A DNA stretch of 64,000 nt from contig JAFSFY010000057.1 in NCBI GenBank assembly GCA_017434985.1, positions 1-64,000 on the forward strand, read 5' to 3'. The notes under the pieces are model-generated. The model was not told the DNA's origin, searched no databases, and worked only from the letters and a program-made list of their open reading frames with translations. Source of the DNA: Clostridia bacterium. Its GTDB lineage: Bacteria; Bacillota; Clostridia; Oscillospirales; Acutalibacteraceae. Shown in pieces: positions 16,214 through 29,096 of the stretch; within the stretch, counting starts at the first letter, position 1, and each line of letters begins with the position of its first letter. The translations under genes and the position numbers were made by a program.

Positions 16214-18538
16214 TTACTGTTTTTTAACAAAAATGGAAATCGCCGCAAACACCAATGTGGCCGCCAACAACATCTCCGCTAAATAGAGCGGTGACAAGAT
16301 ACCGCCCGTAAAGAACATCGTATAGGCGACAAAGGCCATCATGGCAACGGACAAGACCGTTTGTAAAACAGTAAACAAATGTCTGCTCTTTGTCAAACGG
16401 CGGCACAAAGCGAGCGCCAAAACAAGGCCGTTGCGATTGCCGTTGGATACCACTGCAGAGACTTCCGATTCGCTGACACCGTCAACCAAGCCTTCAAACG
16501 AACGGCCGGCGGGAGCACCGAGGAGTTCGACGTAGAAACCATCCAATCCATAAACAGAAGAGATCAACTGTTCGGTAATGTTTTGATCGCAGGTGCGAAC
16601 AAGCAACGTCACACGTTGTTTCGTCAGCGAGGTAAGCATTGTTTTTACCGTTTCATCCGCCACATAACTGACTACGAACATAGCCGAGAGTTCACCGGCG
16701 ATGGACAAGTATACCAGTTGTCGACCGTTGATGGCATAGCGTTCCTCGTAATCTTTGGAGGGGATATCAATGCCGTGGTTATCAAGCAGTTTGCGGTTGC
16801 CGATCAACACACGGCGGCCGCTCACCCAACCGGAAAGACCCATATCCTGTTCGTACACCAACGTATCAACGTCACGCAGCATATCCACTTTGTTTTGAAT
16901 CATACGGCAGAAAACCGCGGACAAGGGACCGCCGGCGCGAATGGACACCGAAGCAGCATCCAAAATCGCATCGTCAATGCGTGTGCCGGAGAAGGTTTTA
17001 ATGCCGTGCAACAACACGCAGTGTTCCGGGAAAATATCCGTTGCATCCATCGCCAATGCGTGAACTTTCCCAAAATTTTCAACCGCTTTGTGACCGACCA
17101 AAGCGCAGCCTTCCCTTTTAGCGGTTCGCGCCGCACTCGTAAAAGCAAGTTGTAACGAAAAGAGTAAGAGCGACGGAGCGACAACGGCAATCAAGGCGCA
17201 AAACAACGTGAGCGTTACCATCCAAGAAGAAATGCCGTTAAGTGCAAAAAAGACAAGTGAAATAAGCAAAGAGGAACCAAAAAGAATCGGCAAGTACCAT
17301 TTCATTTGTCTGGAAGAAAGCGTGCTGTCATCCGCCGTTTTCTCGTACTGATCCACCGCGTTGGTTTCACGATAATACGCCACGCGCGGAACACCGATTG
17401 CCAGGGCGGGACGGCCAATTTCCTCTGCTAACGAGTCGTCATCAATGCAGCGATACACCGTCTTAGAAGTTCTATCTGACAACACAAAAGGCGCATTTTT
17501 GAGGCGGCGATCCCATTCAAAATGTTTGGCGAGAGCCAAAAGCAGTATGCTTAAACCGGAAATGGCCGTTAACAACGGTGTCGTTCCGTTGCGAAGATCG
17601 GTTGTATTCAAAAATTGAAGAGCGGTGTGCACCAAGGTGATCAGCGCCGATATGGTTATCCCGGAAGCAACCGTCGGTTTTCCCGCAAAAAGGTTTTTTA
17701 ATCCATCGCGTAAAAGTGTTAGATTCGAGGCGCACAGGGCGACAAATAAGGCGAGTTGAATACACAAATACGCTATCGGACCCATCGCCAAAACAGGAGA
17801 GAAAGCCGAAAACAAGGTGAGCAAGAACAAGACAATCTCCAAAATAACCGAAAAGAACAGGGCGATAGCTGAACGGCGTACCGATTCAGCGAAACGACGA
17901 ACGGAGACCGAGGATGCTTCCCGTTGTTCAGGAGGTTGTTCCTCGATTTCTTTTTCCGATGCTTCCAAAGGTGTTTCGGGGTACACAACGTCCCCGCGTT
18001 CGTCCGAAATCGGCGTATTTTCGTCGGCATCTTCACGCATATGCTGTTCTCGGCGTTGCGAGAAGTCTTCAATCTGCTCACGACGGACACGGCGTAATCG
18101 TTCTTCACGACCGATTTCTTCGCGCGGTTCTTCGGCTTCTTCAAAGCCTTCCAGCATCATTTGTGTTCCCTTGTCGGCGGGAGGTTCCTCTTCCCCATCC
18201 AACACTTGCGTATCGGACAACGAGGGAATCGGTTGCGTCGGCTCTTCGGAAAATACCTCGCGAGTATCATCGATCTCAGCGGCGATTTCCTGCGTTTCAA
18301 ACACGCGCATTTCCTCCGCTTCTTCCGTTATCGAAACGGGAGAACTCTCCTCTTCTTTTCCTTTTTTTGCACGGCGAAAGAGCCCACCTTTTTTCTTGGT
18401 GTGCTTTTTCTGCGCCAATTCTTCGTCCTCTTTGACAGTCGGGAACTCGGTCGTCGTTTCACGGAAAGTCGTTACCTCTTCAGGGATTTCTGCCGTGTTG
18501 ACTTCTACAAGTTCATCTTGCTGTTTTTTCTTTTTCAT
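16214..18538 (-). CDS. Degenerate P1B-type ATPase-like membrane protein with a long charged N-terminal tail
   Basis: Residues 1-220 are charged, low-complexity and cytoplasmic. Eight membrane helices follow at about 224-246, 251-273, 287-310, 321-340, 414-436, 439-466, 720-742 and 749-771, the P1B topology of heavy-metal ATPases. Residues 475-710 align with the P and N domains: EGCALVGHKAVENFGKVHALAMDATD stands where CopA-type pumps read GILIKGG..LE....V..VVFDKTGT, and GWVSGRRVLIGNRKLLDNHGID is a typical N-domain segment. All catalytic motifs are lost: DKTGT is DATDI, TGDN is RTCDQN, GDGxND is SNGNRNG, the helix-6 CPC is APS, and no TGES is found. It should not pump ions by the normal cycle. 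It follows rlmB by 9 bases behind GGGGG. Role unknown. Confidence 0.8.
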   Translation of the reverse strand: MKKKKQQDELVEVNTAEIPEEVTTFRETTTEFPTVKEDEELAQKKHTKKKGGLFRRAKKGKEEESSPVSITEEAEEMRVFETQEIAAEIDDTREVFSEEPTQPIPSLSDTQVLDGEEEPPADKGTQMMLEGFEEAEEPREEIGREERLRRVRREQIEDFSQRREQHMREDADENTPISDERGDVVYPETPLEASEKEIEEQPPEQREASSVSVRRFAESVRRSAIALFFSVILEIVLFLLTLFSAFSPVLAMGPIAYLCIQLALFVALCASNLTLLRDGLKNLFAGKPTVASGITISALITLVHTALQFLNTTDLRNGTTPLLTAISGLSILLLALAKHFEWDRRLKNAPFVLSDRTSKTVYRCIDDDSLAEEIGRPALAIGVPRVAYYRETNAVDQYEKTADDSTLSSRQMKWYLPILFGSSLLISLVFFALNGISSWMVTLTLFCALIAVVAPSLLLFSLQLAFTSAARTAKREGCALVGHKAVENFGKVHALAMDATDIFPEHCVLLHGIKTFSGTRIDDAILDAASVSIRAGGPLSAVFCRMIQNKVDMLRDVDTLVYEQDMGLSGWVSGRRVLIGNRKLLDNHGIDIPSKDYEERYAINGRQLVYLSIAGELSAMFVVSYVADETVKTMLTSLTKQRVTLLVRTCDQNITEQLISSVYGLDGFYVELLGAPAGRSFEGLVDGVSESEVSAVVSNGNRNGLVLALALCRRLTKSRHLFTVLQTVLSVAMMAFVAYTMFFTGGILSPLYLAEMLLAATLVFAAISIFVKKQ

Positions 18539-19410: not shown

Positions 19411-21003
19411 TTAAGAACGAGCGTTGGTTCCGATCAAATCGGCGGCATCAAACAGATAGTTTCCGTTTTCATCCAGTTTACGATCCAGATTATGACACGC
19501 CACAAAGTGACCGGGCTCAACCTCCGTGAGCGGAGGCGGCACACGCTTGCATTTATCGCAAGCCATAAAACAACGCGTATGGAATTTACAGCCGGAAGGC
19601 GGTTTGATGGGACTGGGGATATTGCCTTCCAAAATAATGCGCTCTTTGGTCAAACTCTCGGGATCGGTGGTGGGGATAGAACTGAGGAGAGCCACCGTGT
19701 ACGGATGACGCGGATCTGCGAAGATCACGTCGGTAGGTGCCACTTCCACCATATTGCCGAGGTACATAACACCGATGCGATCGGAAATGTAGCGCACAAC
19801 AGAAAGGTCGTGAGAAATGAACAGATAGGTCAGTTTCTCTTGCTCTTTCAACTCTTGCAACAGGTTGATGATCTGTGATTGGATCGAAACGTCCAACGCC
19901 GACACACACTCGTCACACACCACGAATTTCGGTTTCACCGCCAACGAACGCGCAATACTGATACGTTGGCGTTGACCACCCGAGAATTGGTGCGGATAAC
20001 GGTTGTACATATAATTCTGCAAACCGCAGGACTGCATCGTCTTAAAAACGTATTCCTTCATCTTCGCCGAACCGGGTTTGAAGAACTTGTGCGTCGTTAA
20101 CCCTTCTTCGATGATCTGACCAATGGTCATACGCGGATTAAGAGAGGAATACGGGTCTTGGAAGATCACCTGCAAATCTTTGCGAAGAAGGCGCATTTCC
20201 TGTTCGGTTAAACGAGAAAGATCAATGCCGTTGTCCAGCATTGCTTCAAAATGGAGGAACTCTTCATCCTGTGCAAAGGGGCGTTTGGCTTCTTCGATTT
20301 GCTTTTCCACATCTGCCGAGGAAGCAACAAGGCTCTCGCGCTCTTTTAACAACGTCTCGCGCTTAGCGGAAAGTTTGGCCAATTTTTTCTCAATAGCTTC
20401 TTTTTTCTCCGAAAGTTCCAAGCCGGATTCCAAAACTTCCGTTTCAAGGTCTATGTCGTCCGTTTGGGAATCGATTTTGGCAACTCTCACAGCATAGTTG
20501 AACTTTTGAAGCAACAACGCAGCGCCGTTTTTGGTATCCCGAACCATAAAACCGCCCAAGATTTTGGCCACGTGTTCCAGCGCCGTTTTGGCTTCGGCAA
20601 CCGCCAAATTCTTTTCTTGTAACTCAAAGAAGGAGGCTTGCTCCCCCAACTCGTCGCATTTTTGCGTCAGTTGAGCAGCTTTTTCGTTTGCTTTGGTATA
20701 TTTGGCGATATACGCATCTGCATGTTTCAGCGTATCCAACACGTAGGACGGTGCCACGGCATTGATATCCCGACCGTAGTACATCGTACTGCCGGCGGTT
20801 TGATCGTATAATTGCAGCAACACACGGCCGAGAGTCGATTTACCGCAACCGGATTCACCGACGAGGCCGAACGTTTCGCCTTCAAAAATATCAATGGAAA
20901 TTTCCTCGTTGGCGCGAACGTACAGTTGTTCCTTTTGGAAAATGCTGGTCTTGGCCACGGGGAAGTACTTTTTGAGGTTATTTATTGACAGTAATTTCTG
21001 CAT
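19411..21003 (-). CDS. oppF: Oligopeptide ABC transporter ATP-binding protein with a large helical insertion
   Basis: An OppF/DppF-type ATPase: Walker [10 protein letters not shown] at 49-57, Q-loop [10 protein letters not shown] near 281, signature [15 protein letters not shown] near 345, Walker [12 protein letters not shown], then the C-terminal oligo_HPY domain with four Cys ([17 protein letters not shown]). Normal family members have about 50 residues between Walker A and Q-loop; here there are about 225. The extra residues, about 83-262, are mostly helical and include a clear coiled coil at 195-245 rich in Lys, Glu and Leu. The start at 21003 overlaps oppD by 26 bases; AAGGAG lies 11 bases before it. 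Confidence 0.92.
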
Positions 21004-21991
21004 GCTCAGCACTTCTCCTTTCCGCTTTTTCCGGATAGAAACATCTTACCAACTGGCCATCCGCCACTTTGGTCAACTTCGGTTCTTCCTCTAAACATTT
21101 TTGAGTGCAATACTTGCAACGCGGCGAAAATTTGCAACCTTTCGGCAGATCAAGCGGGTGCGGAACCACACCGGGGATGGGATCCAATTTTGCACGATCG
21201 TCGTTGAGGCGCGGAATCGAGTGCATAAGACCTTCCGTGTAGGGATGGCTTTGTTCACAATCGGCAAAGATCAACTTGGCCGGTGCTTGCTCCACCACTT
21301 GACCGCAATACATCACAACCACGTCGTCGGCCATTTCGTTAATAACACCGAGGTCGTGCGTGATAAACATAATGGCAGTACCGTTTTCTTTTTGGAGTTG
21401 ATTCATCAACCGCAAAATCTGCGCTTGAATGGTTACGTCGAGCGCAGTCGTCGGTTCGTCCGCAATCAAAATATCCGGTTTACACGCAAGCGCCATTGCG
21501 ATCATCACGCGCTGACGCATACCGCCCGACAATTGGTGCGGATATTGGCGTGCCACCGCCTCGGGGTTGGGAATCTGCACCGCACGCAACATCTCGATAC
21601 ATTTTTCTTCCGCTTGTTTTTTGGTCATCCCTTGGTGAATGATAAAGGGCTCGGACAACTGTTTTTTTACCGAAAAGACGGGGTTTAAGCTGGTCATCGG
21701 CTCTTGGAAAATCACCGAAATACGGTTGCCGCGGATATGATACATATCCTGCATCGGCAAGTTAACCAGGTCTTGTCCGTCGAACAGCACTTCACCATCG
21801 GCAATATAGCCGTTGGCATCGAGCAAGCGCAAAATACTCATAGCCGAAACGCTTTTGCCGGAACCGGACTCACCCACGATGCCGAGGGTCTTCCCTCTTT
21901 CGATGGAGTACGAAACGTCGTTTACCGCTTTGACCGTGCCGTTTCTGGTCTTGAAAAACGTACGGAGATTCTTAACTTCTAACAGTGCCAT
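20978..21991 (-). CDS. oppD: Oligopeptide ABC transporter ATP-binding protein
   Basis: The other ATPase of the pair, of ordinary build: Walker A GESGSGKS near residue 42, Q-loop [10 protein letters not shown], signature [15 protein letters not shown], Walker [15 protein letters not shown], then the oligo_HPY domain with [15 protein letters not shown], a Cys group found in peptide-importer ATPases. 337 residues, family-typical. The ATG overlaps the oppC stop by one base (TAATG) behind GGAGGTGG. Confidence 0.95.
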
Positions 21992-23946
21992 TATTTTTCC
22001 ACCTCCGATTTAGGATCCAACACGTCACGGAGCGTATCACCGATAACGTTGATGCAGATGACGGTGATGGACAAGAAGATGGCCGGGAACAACCAACGCC
22101 ACCAATAGTTTTGGATAACGACCGAGTTACGGCAGCCATCCAGCATATTGCCCCACGTCGGACGCGGCAACTGTACGCCGAAGCCCAAGTAGGAAAGTGT
22201 GGATTCGGTCAACATACAGGTGGCAAAATCAAGCGTAACACTGACCAAAATAACCGAGATCACGTTGGGCAGAATGTGTTTAAAAGCAATACGGCGTTGA
22301 CTGACGCCCATTGATTTGGCCGCCGTTACGAATTCTTTTTCACGCTCGGCAAGCACTTGTCCGCGTACCAATCGCGCAAGGCCCGTCCACGAAAGAAGAC
22401 CCAAAATAATCATAATAATGAAAATTCGCGTATCTTCGTTCAGGTTGGACGCTTGCAAAATGGAGGACAAAACAAGCGCAAACGGCAAAAACGGGATGGC
22501 ACCGAAAATTTCGGTAACACGCATCAGGAACATATCCACCCAACCGCCGAAATAGCCGGAAATACAACCGATGATCACGCCGATGATGGTTGCCACAATA
22601 ACAGCAACCGCACCGATGGTCATGGTCATACGACCGCCGTTCATCACACGATTGAAGATGTCACGTCCCATATTGTCGGTACCAAAGACGTACCCTTTGA
22701 GGCCCCACGCATCCACGAACTCACCGTCTTTATAGGCATAGTTTTGGAAACCGGAAGCGATTACCGTATCCACGGCTCCCGCAACGGTCAGTTGTTCGGG
22801 AACGTCGGTTTGTCCAAGTTTGCCATTACCCCAAGCATACACTTTACCGTTATCAGTCACCAAAATAAAGTGACGCGTACCGGCAGAAACCTCAACGATC
22901 TTTTCGCCCTCCGCCAACACCGGCGGTTTCGTCGCAGTGCCAAGCGTAATCACTTCGCTGTCATCGGTCAACAGTACGACCGAGTCACCACTCGCGGCAA
23001 TGTCGACGATCTTGCGAGTACCGATATAATCAAAAATGTTCACCACTTTTGTGGCGCCGTTTTCATCCAAAATCTGCAAGTTGTCATACTTGGCACTACC
23101 GCCGGTAACGAACTCGCCTTCGTCCGTCAAAGCGAACATACCGCTGTTGGTAAACGCAATTTCATCGAAATTGGCATTTTCTTTGGCAAGTTTCATCACC
23201 GCTTGCATATTGGGAGCACCCGTTTGGTCGTTACCCCACGCATACAGCGAACCGTCCTTCATCAGGATGGCCGTCACTTGGTTGCCGCAGATCAATTGCT
23301 TTACGTTATCCACATTCAACGTACCGTTGAGCAACTCGGTCGGTTGTTTGATGCACATGGCAATCAGGGTACCGTCATGGCTGTATTGCGCATTATCGTA
23401 CATACCCCAGCCGTACACTTTTCCCTTATCGTCAATGGCGATACAGTGGTCGGAACCGGCCGCCGCAAACCGAATGTTCGCATCCTGCACTTCCTGCGGG
23501 ATCTTCATCACGTCAACACGATCTTCTTTGGAAGTGGTGCCGTAGTAACCCCAAACGTGAACGTCTCCCTCTTCGTCCAAACCAAGGGTAAAGGAACCGT
23601 TGGAGGTGATAGAAACCGCACCGTCTTTCAACGAATCGGGCAATTTCATCATGTTCATATTGGGGGCAACGTTTGCATGCGCAGCCTCCATATACGACAG
23701 GTCAACCGGGTCAAACGCCGGACCGATAAACACGAACAGGAACATCGACAGCAAAACGATAACAGCCGTCGTCGCCAGCGGTTTGCGGAAAAAGCGTTTT
23801 ACCGCCAGTTTAGAGGGACTGTCATATCGCTCGTTTTCGACCGTATGCTCTTCCCCACGCATTCTGCCAAACAGATTGCCGAAAAACATTTTTTGCAAGC
23901 ATTCGGCAATAAACAACTTTTTGGGGGCTTTCTTTTGATTATTCAT
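21991..23946 (-). CDS. oppC: Oligopeptide ABC transporter permease (OppC) with an inserted extracellular RCC1-like beta-propeller
   Basis: Residues 1-57 are cytoplasmic with the family's SPSKLAVKRFFRKPLA segment, and helix 1 spans about 58-76. A normal OppC has a short outer loop here, leading into HPLGTDxxGRDxxSR. In this protein about 310 residues (106-416) come first. They carry RCC1-type repeats: DVHVWGY at 128, KVYGWGM at 176, SLYAWGN at 233, KVYAWGN at 368, and weaker ones at 275, 327 and 406. That makes about seven repeats, enough for a closed propeller. The permease then resumes with FGTDNMGRDIFNRV at 421 and the core with the EAA-like loop (AREKEFVTAAKSMGVS). By OppC topology the insert faces outside. 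The frame is unbroken with AAGGAGG before the ATG. Confidence 0.93.
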   Translation of the reverse strand: MNNQKKAPKKLFIAECLQKMFFGNLFGRMRGEEHTVENERYDSPSKLAVKRFFRKPLATTAVIVLLSMFLFVFIGPAFDPVDLSYMEAAHANVAPNMNMMKLPDSLKDGAVSITSNGSFTLGLDEEGDVHVWGYYGTTSKEDRVDVMKIPQEVQDANIRFAAAGSDHCIAIDDKGKVYGWGMYDNAQYSHDGTLIAMCIKQPTELLNGTLNVDNVKQLICGNQVTAILMKDGSLYAWGNDQTGAPNMQAVMKLAKENANFDEIAFTNSGMFALTDEGEFVTGGSAKYDNLQILDENGATKVVNIFDYIGTRKIVDIAASGDSVVLLTDDSEVITLGTATKPPVLAEGEKIVEVSAGTRHFILVTDNGKVYAWGNGKLGQTDVPEQLTVAGAVDTVIASGFQNYAYKDGEFVDAWGLKGYVFGTDNMGRDIFNRVMNGGRMTMTIGAVAVIVATIIGVIIGCISGYFGGWVDMFLMRVTEIFGAIPFLPFALVLSSILQASNLNEDTRIFIIMIILGLLSWTGLARLVRGQVLAEREKEFVTAAKSMGVSQRRIAFKHILPNVISVILVSVTLDFATCMLTESTLSYLGFGVQLPRPTWGNMLDGCRNSVVIQNYWWRWLFPAIFLSITVICINVIGDTLRDVLDPKSEVEK

Positions 23947-23960
23947 TTGTAAAAGCCTCC

Positions 23961-24980
23961 TTACTTGTTCACACGGATACGCGGATCCACGAATCCGTAC
24001 GCAATATCAATGAGCAGGTTACCAAGCAAACCGACGATAACATAGAACATTTGAAGCAACAACACCACTTCAAAATCTTTGCCGGTAAGCGAATTTATAT
24101 AAATGAGGCCCATACCGTTCAGGCCAAAAATGTTTTCAATCATAATAGAGCCGGAGAAAATGCTGAGGAACCAACCAATTACCAAGGTAACGATCGGGAT
24201 CAAGGCGTTTCTCCAAGCGTGCGAATAGATCACAACTTTCTCACGCAAACCTTTTGCACGAGCGGTGCGAATGCAGTCCATCGACAACGCTTCGGTCATG
24301 GATGCACGCACGTAGCGCGTCATACCGCCGAGCGACGACAAGGTCATAACAATCAGCGGCAACGCCATATATTTCATCTGGTCGAAAAACTTTTTCATCC
24401 CCGTATAGTTTGAGCCGGGGGTTTTCATGCCGGAAACCGGAAAAATTCCAAGCACGATAGCAAAGAACCATACACATAAAATGGCGGTAATAAATATGGG
24501 AATACTATACCCGATGATGGTTCCTGCTTGTATGGCGGTATCTCGCTTACTTCCTCGATGTACCGCGCAGAAAATACCCATGGGAATCGTGATGCCGAGT
24601 GCCAAGAATGTGGCAAAAAGATTGATAAAAATGGTGTTTTTCATCGGCTCAACCAATACTTCTTGCGCCGGACGGTCGTGGATATAGCTATACCCGAAAT
24701 CCCCCTGCAACAAACCTTGATATTTGCCGTTGATCGGAGCAACACCGATCCAGCCGAAATAACGAACGATAATATTCTCGTCCAACCCCATTTCTTTCCG
24801 CAACTCTTCATAGCGTTGTTGGAAACCTTCGGGATTGTTTTTATACGCATTCTTTAACGTTTCCACTTCGGCGCGTGCGCGATCGAACGGAATCATCGTG
24901 TATACCACAAACATTAAGAATGAGAGTATTACCGTGACAATCGCCATATACCCCAATCGTTTCAGTATATATTTTCCCAT
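23961..24980 (-). CDS. oppB: Oligopeptide ABC transporter permease
   Basis: OppB-type permease of 339 residues with the N-terminal YILKRLGYMAIVTVILSFLMF helix, the outer segment containing GLDENIIVRYFGWI, five further helices, and the cytoplasmic EAA-like loop MDCIRTARAKGLREKVVIYSHAWRNALIP that docks on the ATPase. It pairs with OppC to form the channel. It lies 160 bases after oppA, separated by two hairpins, and 14 bases before oppC. Confidence 0.94.
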   Translation of the reverse strand: MGKYILKRLGYMAIVTVILSFLMFVVYTMIPFDRARAEVETLKNAYKNNPEGFQQRYEELRKEMGLDENIIVRYFGWIGVAPINGKYQGLLQGDFGYSYIHDRPAQEVLVEPMKNTIFINLFATFLALGITIPMGIFCAVHRGSKRDTAIQAGTIIGYSIPIFITAILCVWFFAIVLGIFPVSGMKTPGSNYTGMKKFFDQMKYMALPLIVMTLSSLGGMTRYVRASMTEALSMDCIRTARAKGLREKVVIYSHAWRNALIPIVTLVIGWFLSIFSGSIMIENIFGLNGMGLIYINSLTGKDFEVVLLLQMFYVIVGLLGNLLIDIAYGFVDPRIRVNK

Positions 24981-25140: not shown

Positions 25141-27276
25141 TTATTCAGCTTCAACGGCGTTTTTGATGGTCGCGTACACAACAGCATCCGCGCAACCCCA
25201 GAACGGACTGGTTTTGTAGTTCTCGATCTTGGAGTTGTAGATGTCATAGTAGTAGTTGGAGTACAGCGGGATATCGGGAACCAAGGAGTTCCATTTCTCG
25301 ATGTAAGCTTTCCACCACTCGTTGTATTCCGCTTCGGTCTTGGCGTTGTACACCATCGCCATGGAGAGATAATCCATACCGAGGTTTTCAGCGCCGGCAG
25401 CTTTCGCAGCAGCCAAAGCATCCGCATAGGACAGTTTCTCAGCGGTGATGTCATAGGGATACTTCGCATCGTCGGGATCGAAGAACTTGTTGGAAGAATA
25501 GCCAAAGTACTTCGGATCGCTGGACCAGTTGAACGCATAGTCATAGATAGCGGAGTTCCAGCCGGTAGCCAGGTTGAACATACCGTAAGTGGGAGTACCG
25601 CCGTAGCCGTAGCTCTCTTCACGATAGATCTCGCCGAGGAGTTTGTCGAAGTCACCGGTGGTGGAACGGATCACCATACCGGCGGAAGTAACTTCCGCGC
25701 TGTTCGCCAAGGAGGTGCCGATCAAGTCGGTCACGTCGTTGGGGGTGGTGCCGAACCAGTTGATGACGAGCGGCATGTAATAGTCGTTGCCGACTTTCAC
25801 GGTTTTGTATTCCACACCGTCGGTGTTGGCCACGGAGGTGTAGGTTTTGTTGACGCCGTCGCAAGCAGCAGCTTCTTCAGCGGTCAATTTCTTATAGCGG
25901 ACAGCGTCCACACCGGTGGCGCCTTCCACGTAGGCTTCGCCCTTGGAGTTGTAGACCCAGCCGTTGTCTTCGAGGACCTTCTTAGCGGAAGCCAAGGAGT
26001 ACTCGTAGCTGTTGAGTTGGATGGTGTCTTTCACAGCGAGCCATTGCGCGAAGTCAGGAGAATACGGGCCGTGCACCACTTGACCGTAACCGCCGGTGAA
26101 GGTGGAGCAGAACGCGTTTCTGTCGAGCAAGTAGGTGATGGCTTGACGCACTTCGTTGAACATCGTGGGACCGAAGTCGCATTCGAATTGGATCTTACCG
26201 TAGCCGGCACGTTGATAGTGGTTCTCCGCCAATTTGCCTTCGGAGGCTTTCATCGCGTCGAGAGCCGCTTTGGTGTCGGTACCGCCGGTGATGTTGGCGA
26301 GAACGTCGATAACACCGTTCTTCAACTGGTCAAGTTGAGTCTCGGAAACGATCTTCACGTACACAACGGTGGTGATGGCCGGTTTTTGGCCTTCAAAGTT
26401 ACCCGCGAATTCGGGGTTGATCTTCAAGGTGACTTCTTTGGTGCTCTCATCCCAAGCCGAGATGGTGTAGGGACCGGAGAACGCGTATTTGGTCACGTCG
26501 TAACGAGCCGCTTTGAGGTGCTCGCTCTTCTCGTAGGTGAGGGTTTCGGCGGTGGAATCAGCCGCTTTCTTGTACCAAGCATCGGTCAAGTAAGCACCGT
26601 TACCGTCGTCCTTCACTTCCACGCCTTCACCCAACACGAGGTCGAGCGGATAGGGCGTGACAGCGCCGTAGGTGTTCGCATAGTAGTAGGGATAGAAGCC
26701 CGCTTCTTTGCTAACGGTCAGCGAGAATTTGTAGTCGCCGAGCAAACGAACGCCGGCAAACTCTTTGGTGGCACCTTTCACTTCAACGTCGGCACCAACG
26801 TAGGCTTTGAAGCTATCGAAACCGACAAAGGCTTGGCCGGACATACCGGTGTGGCCCGCATTGACGGAAACGTTCGTGCTGAAAGCCAAAACGTAAGCCA
26901 AGTAGTTGACAGCCTTCACTTCAGAACCATCGCTGAATTTGAGACCGGGGTTGATTTCGACGGTCACGACCAAGTTGCCGTTCTCGTCTTCAACTTCCGA
27001 GTGCTCTTTGACAACCGTTTGGTTCCACACATAGGCACCGTTTTGGTTGGTTTCCATGGTGGAGTAACCGGTAGTCAAGCGGTTGATGTCTTGGTCAGAC
27101 GCGCCGGCAGAGCTGCCGCCGAAACCGGGCCAGCGGAAGTCGCCGGAAAGTTCCGTCACGTTACCAAGGATGACTTTGTTCTCGTTTTTCTCAACTTTTT
27201 CGCCGCAACCCGCGAACATGCCAAGGCACAACAGGGCGACGAGGAGCAGAGCAAGAACTTTTGAGAATTTGCGCAT
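25141..27276 (-). CDS. oppA: Oligopeptide-binding lipoprotein, family 5 solute-binding protein
   Basis: The protein starts with a lipoprotein signal peptide: MRKFSKV, a hydrophobic core, and the lipobox FAGC at about 21-24. The mature part (about 690 residues) fits family 5 binding proteins: an N-terminal lobe with PGLKFSDGSEVKAVNYLAYVLAFST near 105 (the usual LKFHDGTPVTAEDV region), the EVRQAITYLLDRNAFCS segment near 370 and C-terminal lobe. It is longer than common OppA (about 540-600), with extra loops rich in Asp and Gly. AAGGAGAGG lies before the ATG. First gene of the operon. Confidence 0.93.
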   Translation of the reverse strand: MRKFSKVLALLLVALLCLGMFAGCGEKVEKNENKVILGNVTELSGDFRWPGFGGSSAGASDQDINRLTTGYSTMETNQNGAYVWNQTVVKEHSEVEDENGNLVVTVEINPGLKFSDGSEVKAVNYLAYVLAFSTNVSVNAGHTGMSGQAFVGFDSFKAYVGADVEVKGATKEFAGVRLLGDYKFSLTVSKEAGFYPYYYANTYGAVTPYPLDLVLGEGVEVKDDGNGAYLTDAWYKKAADSTAETLTYEKSEHLKAARYDVTKYAFSGPYTISAWDESTKEVTLKINPEFAGNFEGQKPAITTVVYVKIVSETQLDQLKNGVIDVLANITGGTDTKAALDAMKASEGKLAENHYQRAGYGKIQFECDFGPTMFNEVRQAITYLLDRNAFCSTFTGGYGQVVHGPYSPDFAQWLAVKDTIQLNSYEYSLASAKKVLEDNGWVYNSKGEAYVEGATGVDAVRYKKLTAEEAAACDGVNKTYTSVANTDGVEYKTVKVGNDYYMPLVINWFGTTPNDVTDLIGTSLANSAEVTSAGMVIRSTTGDFDKLLGEIYREESYGYGGTPTYGMFNLATGWNSAIYDYAFNWSSDPKYFGYSSNKFFDPDDAKYPYDITAEKLSYADALAAAKAAGAENLGMDYLSMAMVYNAKTEAEYNEWWKAYIEKWNSLVPDIPLYSNYYYDIYNSKIENYKTSPFWGCADAVVYATIKNAVEAE

Positions 27277-27392: not shown

Positions 27393-29096
27393 TCAGGCAA
27401 TGTCGCTCAAATCAAACGCCGCCAACCAACGATTGGCCACGTCACACACATTGCGCAGGCAAGTTTCTTCAAACGGGCTATCCAATCCCGCGTTTTTGAG
27501 CAGTTCGGTGAACACACGGCTGCCGCCTTGCGAGGTGTACGCCATATAGTGCTTCCATGCATCTTTGGGATCCGCTTGAATCTTCGCCCAGAATTGCAAC
27601 GCCACGGTTTGGGCAAGGCAATAGTCGATATAGTAGAACGGGCTGGAATAAATGTGATGTTGACGTTGCCACCCCTCCCCTTCGCTGTAGAAAGGAATGT
27701 CGCCGTCAAGTTTCATCCACGGCATATACACGCCGAGCAGTTCTTTCCACTTCGCATGACGGTCGGCCGGTGTCATTTCGGGGTGTTCGTACACCTCGTG
27801 TTGGAAATGATCCACCAACGTGCCGTACGGAATAAACGTGAGGGCACCCGCCAAATGGCTGTACATAAACTTGCGCGTATCCGCGCCGAAGAAGCCTTCT
27901 GCCCACGGCCACGCAAAGAATTCCATCGACATCGAGTGAACTTCGCAACCTTCCATGCTGGGCCAAATGGTCTCCATCGGAATGCGTTTGCGATTGAGCC
28001 AATCGGCAAACGCGTGACCCGCTTCGTGGGTAACCACTTCCACGTCGTGTTGGGTACCGTTAAAGTTGGCAAAAATGAACGGTACTTCGTAAGCGTGAAG
28101 CGAGGTGCAGTAACCGCCGCCCGCTTTCCCCTCGGTAGAGAGCACGTCCAACAGTTCGTTATCCAACATCGTGTTGAAAAATTCGCTGGTTTCGGGAGAC
28201 AACTCATCGTAAAACACTTTGCCGTGTGCCAAAATATCGTCCGGCGTTCCGCAGGGTTTGGGATTGCCGGAACGGAACATCAAAGCATTGTCCGCAAAAC
28301 TCATCGGATAGGTCTTGCCCAAGCGCTTGGCCTGTTCGCGGTAGATCGCATCTGCCACCGGCACCAAATACTTCACAACGGCGGCGCGGAATTTTTCCAC
28401 GTCTTCTTTTCCGTAGCAGTTGCGGCCCATATTGTAATAACCGAGTTCCGTGTATCCCGCGTAACCCAATTTCTTACCCATTGCATCACGCAAAGTGGTC
28501 AACTCATGATAAATGTTATCCAGTTTTTCTTGGTTATCTTTGTACCATTGGCCCTCCGCCTTCCAGGCAGCCAAACGGCGCTCGTCATCCGCATCGGTTT
28601 TAAACGGCGACATCTGCGAAATGGTATACTCGCCGCCTTCAAACGGGATCTTCGCGGAAGCCAACAGCTTTTCGTATTCCTGGGTCAATTCATTCTCTTT
28701 TTGCAATTCGGGAATGATGTCCGGTGAAAACGCTTTCAGCGCGATTTCGGCATTGAGGAACATTACGTCACCGAATTCTTCGGCAAACTCTTTGCGGAAA
28801 GGCGAAGCTAAGAGCGCCATCGTCCATTTTTGTTGATACTCTTGTAATTCCGGCATCGTCACGTTCCAGAACTTCATTTCTTCATCGTAGAAAGTATCAC
28901 GCGTATCAATGGAATGACGAATATGTGCCAACGTGCCGTTGGTGGCAAAGTTCTTAATAAACTCTTCCTTTTCCAAAAAAACGGCGCGCGCTTGCTCGTA
29001 AGTTGCTGCATCGGCCAATGCCTTCGTCAACATCTCCAATTGTTGTTTCGCCGCCTCGGGATCGGGGCGATGATACGGCATTTCGGAAAATTTCAT
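27393..29096 (-). CDS. pepF: M3-family oligoendopeptidase (PepF type)
   Basis: A cytoplasmic zinc peptidase that degrades short peptides. VVTHEAGHAFADW near residue 350 is the HExxH zinc site of family M3, and the third ligand Glu comes in PSMEGCEVHSMSMEFF about 25 residues later, the family order. It has no signal peptide. Length 567 fits the M3 oligoendopeptidase subfamily. It lies directly upstream of the oligopeptide importer, in keeping with a role in using imported peptides. GGAGGG is 7 bases before the ATG. Confidence 0.94.
   Translation of the reverse strand: MKFSEMPYHRPDPEAAKQQLEMLTKALADAATYEQARAVFLEKEEFIKNFATNGTLAHIRHSIDTRDTFYDEEMKFWNVTMPELQEYQQKWTMALLASPFRKEFAEEFGDVMFLNAEIALKAFSPDIIPELQKENELTQEYEKLLASAKIPFEGGEYTISQMSPFKTDADDERRLAAWKAEGQWYKDNQEKLDNIYHELTTLRDAMGKKLGYAGYTELGYYNMGRNCYGKEDVEKFRAAVVKYLVPVADAIYREQAKRLGKTYPMSFADNALMFRSGNPKPCGTPDDILAHGKVFYDELSPETSEFFNTMLDNELLDVLSTEGKAGGGYCTSLHAYEVPFIFANFNGTQHDVEVVTHEAGHAFADWLNRKRIPMETIWPSMEGCEVHSMSMEFFAWPWAEGFFGADTRKFMYSHLAGALTFIPYGTLVDHFQHEVYEHPEMTPADRHAKWKELLGVYMPWMKLDGDIPFYSEGEGWQRQHHIYSSPFYYIDYCLAQTVALQFWAKIQADPKDAWKHYMAYTSQGGSRVFTELLKNAGLDSPFEETCLRNVCDVANRWLAAFDLSDIA

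Follow-up and report, generated by a model that had tools for sequence, protein, structure and literature searches.

Why should the permease subunit of a bacterial peptide importer carry a domain of RCC1-type repeats in a loop outside the membrane, and what could such a domain do there? The question is raised by an OppC gene in the window, by which we mean the whole stretch of DNA analyzed (64,000 nucleotides of contig JAFSFY010000057.1 from a Clostridia bacterium, assembly GCA_017434985.1). A first-pass annotation, made from the letters alone, described RCC1-type repeats between helix 1 of this OppC and the conserved GTDNMGRD segment, in an intact frame and with all operon neighbors present, and knew of no described peptide importer of such a build. 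It expected about seven repeats to close a propeller facing outward, which could dock OppA, select peptides or sense something outside. It proposed structure prediction, a search for homologs and a comparison of insert boundaries across genomes as checks, and named an assembly join as the finding that would overturn it.

The operon and its neighbors

Pfam analysis gives the gene order OppA, OppB, OppC, OppD, OppF, all on the minus strand, and bears out the statement that the neighbors are all present: the operon is complete, with a binding protein of SBP family 5, two permeases and two ATPases carrying oligo_HPY domains. The features of the locus are listed below with their evidence in brackets.

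19411..21012, minus strand: oppF, ATPase of 533 aa, GTG start as listed (frame list, Pfam, NCBIfam)
20227..20760, minus strand: helical insert of OppF, about residues 85-262, Walker A to Q-loop, four long helices (span pattern, AlphaFold)
20978..21991, minus strand: oppD, ATPase of 337 aa without insert (Pfam; Walker A to Q-loop span)
21991..23946, minus strand: oppC with RCC1-type propeller, 651 aa (frame, Pfam, AlphaFold model, fold alignment)
22009..22677, minus strand: OppC permease core, residues 424-646 (BPD_transp_1; alignment to 8z21_B)
22702..23637, minus strand: predicted seven-bladed RCC1-type propeller, residues 104-415, outer TM1-TM2 loop (Pfam, AlphaFold, fold alignment, conservation)
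23713..23781, minus strand: first transmembrane helix of OppC, residues 56-78 (OppC_N match; helix 56-78 in the AlphaFold model)
23961..24980, minus strand: oppB, permease of 339 aa (Pfam)
25141..27276, minus strand: oppA, binding lipoprotein of 711 aa, SBP family 5 (Pfam, profile search)
27393..29096, minus strand: M3 family oligoendopeptidase (NCBIfam/Pfam; associated with the operon by position only)

The oppF frame as listed overlaps oppD by 35 bases, and its true start may therefore lie later. OppA has an N-terminal cysteine, C24, that is invariant in 43 aligned sequences. Among solved proteins the closest to it is 9p48, an entry for a peptide-binding OppA (E 1.4e-56 with a profile, 3.1e-26 with the single sequence), for which we found no paper. 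The M3 oligoendopeptidase gene precedes oppA by 116 bases and is read from the same strand, and an RlmB gene lies downstream of the operon. The solved relative of OppA and the peptidase next door point, indirectly, to peptides as the likely cargo of the importer. Relatives of this peptidase are the commonest flanking family across 48 loci, being found near the operon in 10 of them in either orientation. An ABC ATPase is found near the operon in 9 of the 48, and six other flanking clusters occur in four to six loci each, at least two of these clusters resembling frames on the wrong strand. In the 48 loci, whose flanks reach at most 7 kb and are often shorter, we saw no additional gene that accompanies the operon throughout. 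A separate observation concerns positions 16214-18538, which encode a 774-aa protein with a long charged N-terminus that matched nothing in NCBIfam at 1e-20 or in Pfam at 0.001.

A predicted RCC1-type propeller within OppC

OppC is encoded by a single intact open frame with an ATG start (21991-23946, minus strand, 651 residues), as the first reading had it. Pfam finds OppC_N at residues 43-95 (E 3.6e-7) and BPD_transp_1 at residues 456-646 (E 4e-33), and the GTDNMGRD segment starts at residue 422; the two permease domains, together with the OppC fold seen in the fold alignment, identify a permease of the Opp/Dpp type. With the named Opp subfamilies of NCBIfam, the best score was 314 bits for Opp4C, below the cut-off of 350, and among the matches listed (25 of 26 NCBIfam rows) all others were below their own cut-offs, including E. 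coli OppC PRK15406. This OppC is a relative of the named subfamilies, not a member.

Matches to RCC1-type Pfam families span about residues 107 to 415, and the repeats reported between helix 1 and GTDNMGRD are indeed there. RCC1_2 matches over four stretches (E 1.3e-27, 95.3 bits against a cut-off of 22) and RCC1 at E 5.4e-9 (36.9 bits against 21.7), while the full-length RCC1-like domain WD40_RLD reaches 1.1e-38 but, with 133.9 bits, stays below its curated cut-off of 150. The four strong motifs named in the first-pass annotation have their final WG at G133, G181, G238 and G373, and G283, G336 and G415 are the last residues of the three weaker ones; the spacings, counted on the protein sequence, are 48, 57, 45, 53, 37 and 42. 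The insert begins at about residue 96-104 and extends to residue 415. An ad hoc repeat motif catches five of the repeats and nothing in the remainder of the protein, and in 2000 shuffles of the insert it occurred 0.017 times on average and at most once; since this motif was composed after viewing the sequence, the Pfam E-values are the fairer test. A PDB sequence search returned OppC (8z21_B, 3.3e-53) for the permease half of the protein, and UVR8, HERC2, RCC1 and BLIP-II for the insert half.

We modeled OppC alone with AlphaFold, using an alignment of 50 OppC sequences as input. The model (mean pLDDT 80.9, pTM 0.73, the insert mostly at pLDDT 80-95) has helix 1 at residues 56-78 and predicts that the insert, at about residues 96-415, is a closed seven-bladed RCC1-type propeller. 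The blades appear as strand groups at 110-133, 158-181, 215-238, 260-280, 313-335, 350-373 and 394-415, a count that covers the window OppC only and not the remaining 70 sequences of its clade (see below). BLIP-II also has seven blades. In comparisons with VIA-align, E. coli OppC (8z21_B) aligned over 277 of its 278 residues to model residues 41 to 645 (Z 29.3, rmsd 2.3); nearly the entire chain aligns, and therefore the insert sits in the TM1-TM2 loop. Among propellers the best match was BLIP-II (3qi0_C), which aligned to OppC residues 96-406 over 250 residues with Z 25.6 and rmsd 2.5; UVR8 (7vgg_B, Z 25.3) tied with it, and RCC1 came next with Z about 21. The PDB titles of 3qi0 and 7vgg both name complexes or interactions with other proteins.

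The TM1-TM2 loop of E. coli DppC is periplasmic according to excerpts from PMC12136057. The N-terminal flank of the window OppC is basic (13 K+R against 6 D+E in residues 1-55), as expected of the cytoplasmic side. By homology we infer that the propeller faces outward, where the first-pass annotation had placed it. We see no ground to expect RCC1-like exchange on the Ran GTPase outside a bacterial membrane.

A single clade with shared boundaries

We built a tree of 108 OppC core sequences with the insert left out (71 with RCC1 repeats, 18 with other inserts and 19 with none), by a quick method with no bootstrap. The 71 distinct RCC1 sequences make up one side of one branch with an SH-aLRT of 99. 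Because the rows are loci fetched with the window OppC or its alignment as the query, the tree is uninformative on the frequency of the trait; one row without insert (L132) is cut by a contig end and probably belongs with the other inserts. All 71 clade sequences match the insert profile at 198 bits or more, and no row lacking the RCC1 insert was found inside the clade among the sampled rows.

The insert also has the same boundaries across genomes, a point on which the first-pass annotation had wanted evidence, as both the alignments and the clade of 71 indicate. A conserved linker (residues 79-109) leads into it, and its last strand runs into the conserved GLKGY...GTD...GRD stretch, with six residues between that strand and GTD. 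Mean conservation is 0.698 at residues 416-423, 0.669 in the OppC core and 0.533 in the linker; conserved attachments at both ends of the insert fit a rigid mount. Conservation is lowest in the long inter-blade loops (0.336), and the two sets of short loops are conserved alike (AB 0.534, BC 0.532), so that by this measure neither face of the propeller stands out as conserved. In seven of seven close pairs the dN/dS of the insert is 0.04-0.22, against 0.006-0.124 for the core, and it exceeds that of the core in six of the seven; the insert is therefore under purifying selection that is looser than that on the core. The insert dS is near 1.1 in three of the seven pairs and near 2.1 in one, which makes those omega values rough. 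Taken together, the anatomy of this OppC and its place in a single clade can be regarded as almost certain.

In a search of 196 class genomes, OppC inserts scored at least 193 bits, and the best matches to the insert outside OppC reached 153 bits at most. The top three of the latter lie in frames of 3188, 1952 and 681 residues, and among the matches listed the frames range from 311 to 29380 residues. This suggests that a large RCC1-repeat protein was the source of the propeller.

Distribution of the propeller-bearing permease

The search for homologs was answered by a scan of a species-genome collection, which found the RCC1-OppC at 48 further loci or contigs with 36-69% identity and nearly full coverage; the patterns came from the window OppC alone, so that close relatives only were reached. 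Carriers occur in records named Oscillospiraceae, Lachnospiraceae, Tissierellia and others, they include isolates or named strains (Acetivibrio ethanolgignens, Soehngenia longivitae, Merdimmobilis hominis), and some come from gut and digesters. Of 391 genomes sampled evenly across the class, 17 encode it, the window's own genome counted, and of 398 sampled from the phylum 14 do so, two genomes (G000 and G102) being common to both counts; these whole-genome profile searches scored three candidates per genome as a rule. Among 40 relatives of the window genome there is one carrier (G039), and there is none among the eight genomes of the same genus, several of which are incomplete; the distribution is therefore patchy. 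Plasmid records gave 168 matches, none to more than 80% of the query.

We found nothing in favor of an assembly join or a frame artefact as the explanation of this gene; the genome that holds the window is a draft assembly of 66 contigs, 89.93% complete. Against such an artefact stand the 48 separate contigs that encode the protein nearly end to end, those of the three isolates named above among them, and the single clade, so that we regard it as ruled out for practical purposes. In the window genome the OppC query matches itself alone, the only OppC-type permease found, and this OppC is the only protein above the RCC1_2 cut-off (none of 14 control genomes had a match). SBP_bac_5 matches no protein there other than OppA, and searches of the draft for PTR2 and OPT transporters found none. 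This is therefore the only peptide importer found in the draft genome for the families tested.

A helical insert in the partner ATPase OppF

The OppF insert went unmentioned in the first-pass annotation and is a new observation here. Between its Walker A motif and its Q-loop, the window OppF has about 180 residues more than is usual. In the AlphaFold model the insert has helices at 98-125, 128-156, 160-198 and 204-246, mostly with pLDDT above 90. A fold comparison aligned the core with 310 of the 328 residues of E. coli OppF; the ATPases that it listed align to the core, so the comparison barely tests the insert itself. By sequence, no solved relative of the insert was found up to E 1.

A strict pattern gave a Walker A to Q-loop span of 176-235 in all 54 readable RCC1 operons (71 in total, 17 unreadable), and of 27-48 in the 16 that it read out of 37 operons without RCC1-OppC. 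A looser pattern read 22 of those 37, with a span of at most 44, and hence an insert in none of the 22. With the loose pattern 55 RCC1 operons were covered, 52 with both ATPases and three with OppF alone, and in three it stopped early (75, 85 and 113), though the proteins have 513-546 aa. Two operons unread by the strict pattern (L136 and L137) encode an OppF of 556 aa. In the class sample, searched again with three candidates scored per genome as a rule, an OppF frame matching at least part of the insert occurs in all 17 RCC1 genomes (partial in G375, G222 and G288). An eighteenth genome, G140, has an insert-bearing OppF, and no RCC1-OppC was found there; the partner may be missing, since this OppF sits at the end of a contig of 3742 bases in an assembly with a completeness of 78%. 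The RCC1 propeller in OppC is thus paired with the OppF insert in every readable operon. In two loci (L151 and L055) OppF is split into two frames in the draft assemblies, possibly through sequencing errors. The NCBIfam OppD model of the MMSYN1 series, which we take to be derived from mycoplasma, aligns to the window OppF in one stretch (29-512), a lead suggesting that inserts in the same ATPase region may exist there too.

Possible function of the propeller

In ABC importers, specificity and docking are commonly ascribed to the binding protein and to short loops of the permease. Excerpts from PMC12136057 describe docking through these elements; in the Dpp system of E. coli, DppB grips DppA with its TM1-TM2 scoop, DppC contacts DppF, and DppB contacts DppD. 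The most likely reading, to which we give a probability of about 0.4, is that the propeller serves on the outer side as a platform for docking, perhaps of OppA. An RCC1/BLIP-II-type propeller would have been inserted, most simply once, into the outer TM1-TM2 loop of OppC in the ancestor of a clade now spread across the phylum, and would have been kept since. It would adjoin the docking place of the binding protein, at the position in OppC that corresponds to the OppB scoop, and could form a rigid platform that keeps the lipoprotein OppA in its loaded state, or the cargo of OppA, above the channel. By analogy with the DppC-DppF pairing, the propeller and the OppF insert are probably on one half of the machine, where the latter may hold or regulate something cytoplasmic.

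The outer segment of OppB has a median length of 46.5 residues in 48 RCC1 operons (23 unread), 38 in 13 operons without insert (six unread) and 49.5 in four operons with other OppC inserts (14 unread), a rough measure. Substitution of the propeller for the OppB scoop was rejected, as the scoop region is retained and is not shorter where read; the propeller would add to the scoop and is not needed as a replacement. In 50 operons, distance correlation gave a partial r of 0.36 for the insert with OppA, 0.39 with the OppF core and 0.15 for the two inserts with each other; the correlation is not specific for OppA, because that with the OppF core cannot reflect contact. Counting against docking, at the level of sequence, are the faster evolution of the insert relative to the core in six of seven pairs and the low conservation of the long inter-blade loops.

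These variable loops would be expected of a changing partner, and it is possible, if rather unlikely, that the propeller binds something other than OppA, such as the cell wall, a surface protein, a secreted protease or a soluble ligand, and in this way positions or recruits the importer. Propellers of the RCC1 type act as general protein binders, and the long open frames with the best non-OppC matches to the insert may encode surface proteins; however, the operon has no constant companion gene, the commonest (the M3 peptidase) being present in 10 of 48 loci. The pairing of propeller and OppF insert, both expected on the C-F half, would also suit joint sensing, in which binding outside alters ATPase activity or a cytoplasmic partner. 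We think this improbable, as common descent in one clade accounts for the pairing without any link and the partial r between the inserts is only 0.15.

Least probable of these functional readings is that the propeller is a tolerated passenger or spacer with no specific binding role. Neighboring OppCs carry unrelated inserts in the same loop, which therefore tolerates insertions, and insert omega is above that of the core in six of seven pairs; however, all 71 clade members match the insert profile, no insert-less row was sampled inside the clade, and omega is at 0.04-0.22. Beyond docking as such, one may speculate, though we hold it doubtful, that these operons are a distinct two-ended importer subtype whose C-F half gained a protein-binding propeller outside and a four-helix domain inside, so that docking would be physically coupled to ATPase control or to a partner in the cytoplasm, in organisms that may have no other peptide importer.

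Relation to known systems

The importer shares its permease core, ATPase cores and family-5 binding protein with E. coli OppBCDF and DppABCDF and with M. tuberculosis OppABCD (8z21, 8z1v-z, 8j5q-t). Unlike the window proteins, the solved OppC and DppC chains (273-289 residues) are too short to contain a propeller, and the same holds for the aligned E. coli OppF chain (328 residues) and the helical insert. BLIP-II (3qi0, 1jtd), a bacterial RCC1-type propeller, has the same predicted fold and is a free-standing inhibitor, whereas the window propeller sits within a loop of a permease. UVR8, RCC1 and the HERC RLD domains also have RCC1 repeats and the same fold, but are eukaryotic and give no sign of a common function.

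In the open-access literature searched, with preprints and most subscription papers outside its scope, we found no account of a peptide permease with RCC1 repeats, in agreement with the view of the first-pass annotation. Excerpts from PMC10928387 deal with RCC1-like proteins of Hepatoplasmataceae and no transporter; in those from PMC10804542 and PMC13210998 RCC1 is a strain name, in that from PMC2950845 it is one of the domains listed for glutamate-receptor relatives, and those from PMC10710014 and PMC2394750 describe no such permease. An importer with an outside propeller and a helical insert in OppF is therefore a variant of the Opp/Dpp type undescribed in that literature. A conserved permease propeller with a matching ATPase insert is a natural test case for recruitment of a binding protein by a permease and for the passage of a signal across a half-transporter. 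The system occurs in named strains (A. ethanolgignens, S. longivitae, M. hominis) and is therefore open to testing.

Other clostridial OppCs (L003-L005, L115-L126) also have a large extra segment in the same outer loop. These proteins (e.g. L003:631-2196, L004, L005, L018 and L115-L126) have roughly 415-656 aa and no RCC1 repeats. Their inserts gave no Pfam match above cut-off in four tested and no PDB profile match up to E 0.1 in 11 sequences. Unlike the RCC1-OppCs, they do not match the insert profile, and their operons, where read, have an ordinary OppF. Seventeen of the 18 such rows fall in another part of the OppC tree and one lies elsewhere.
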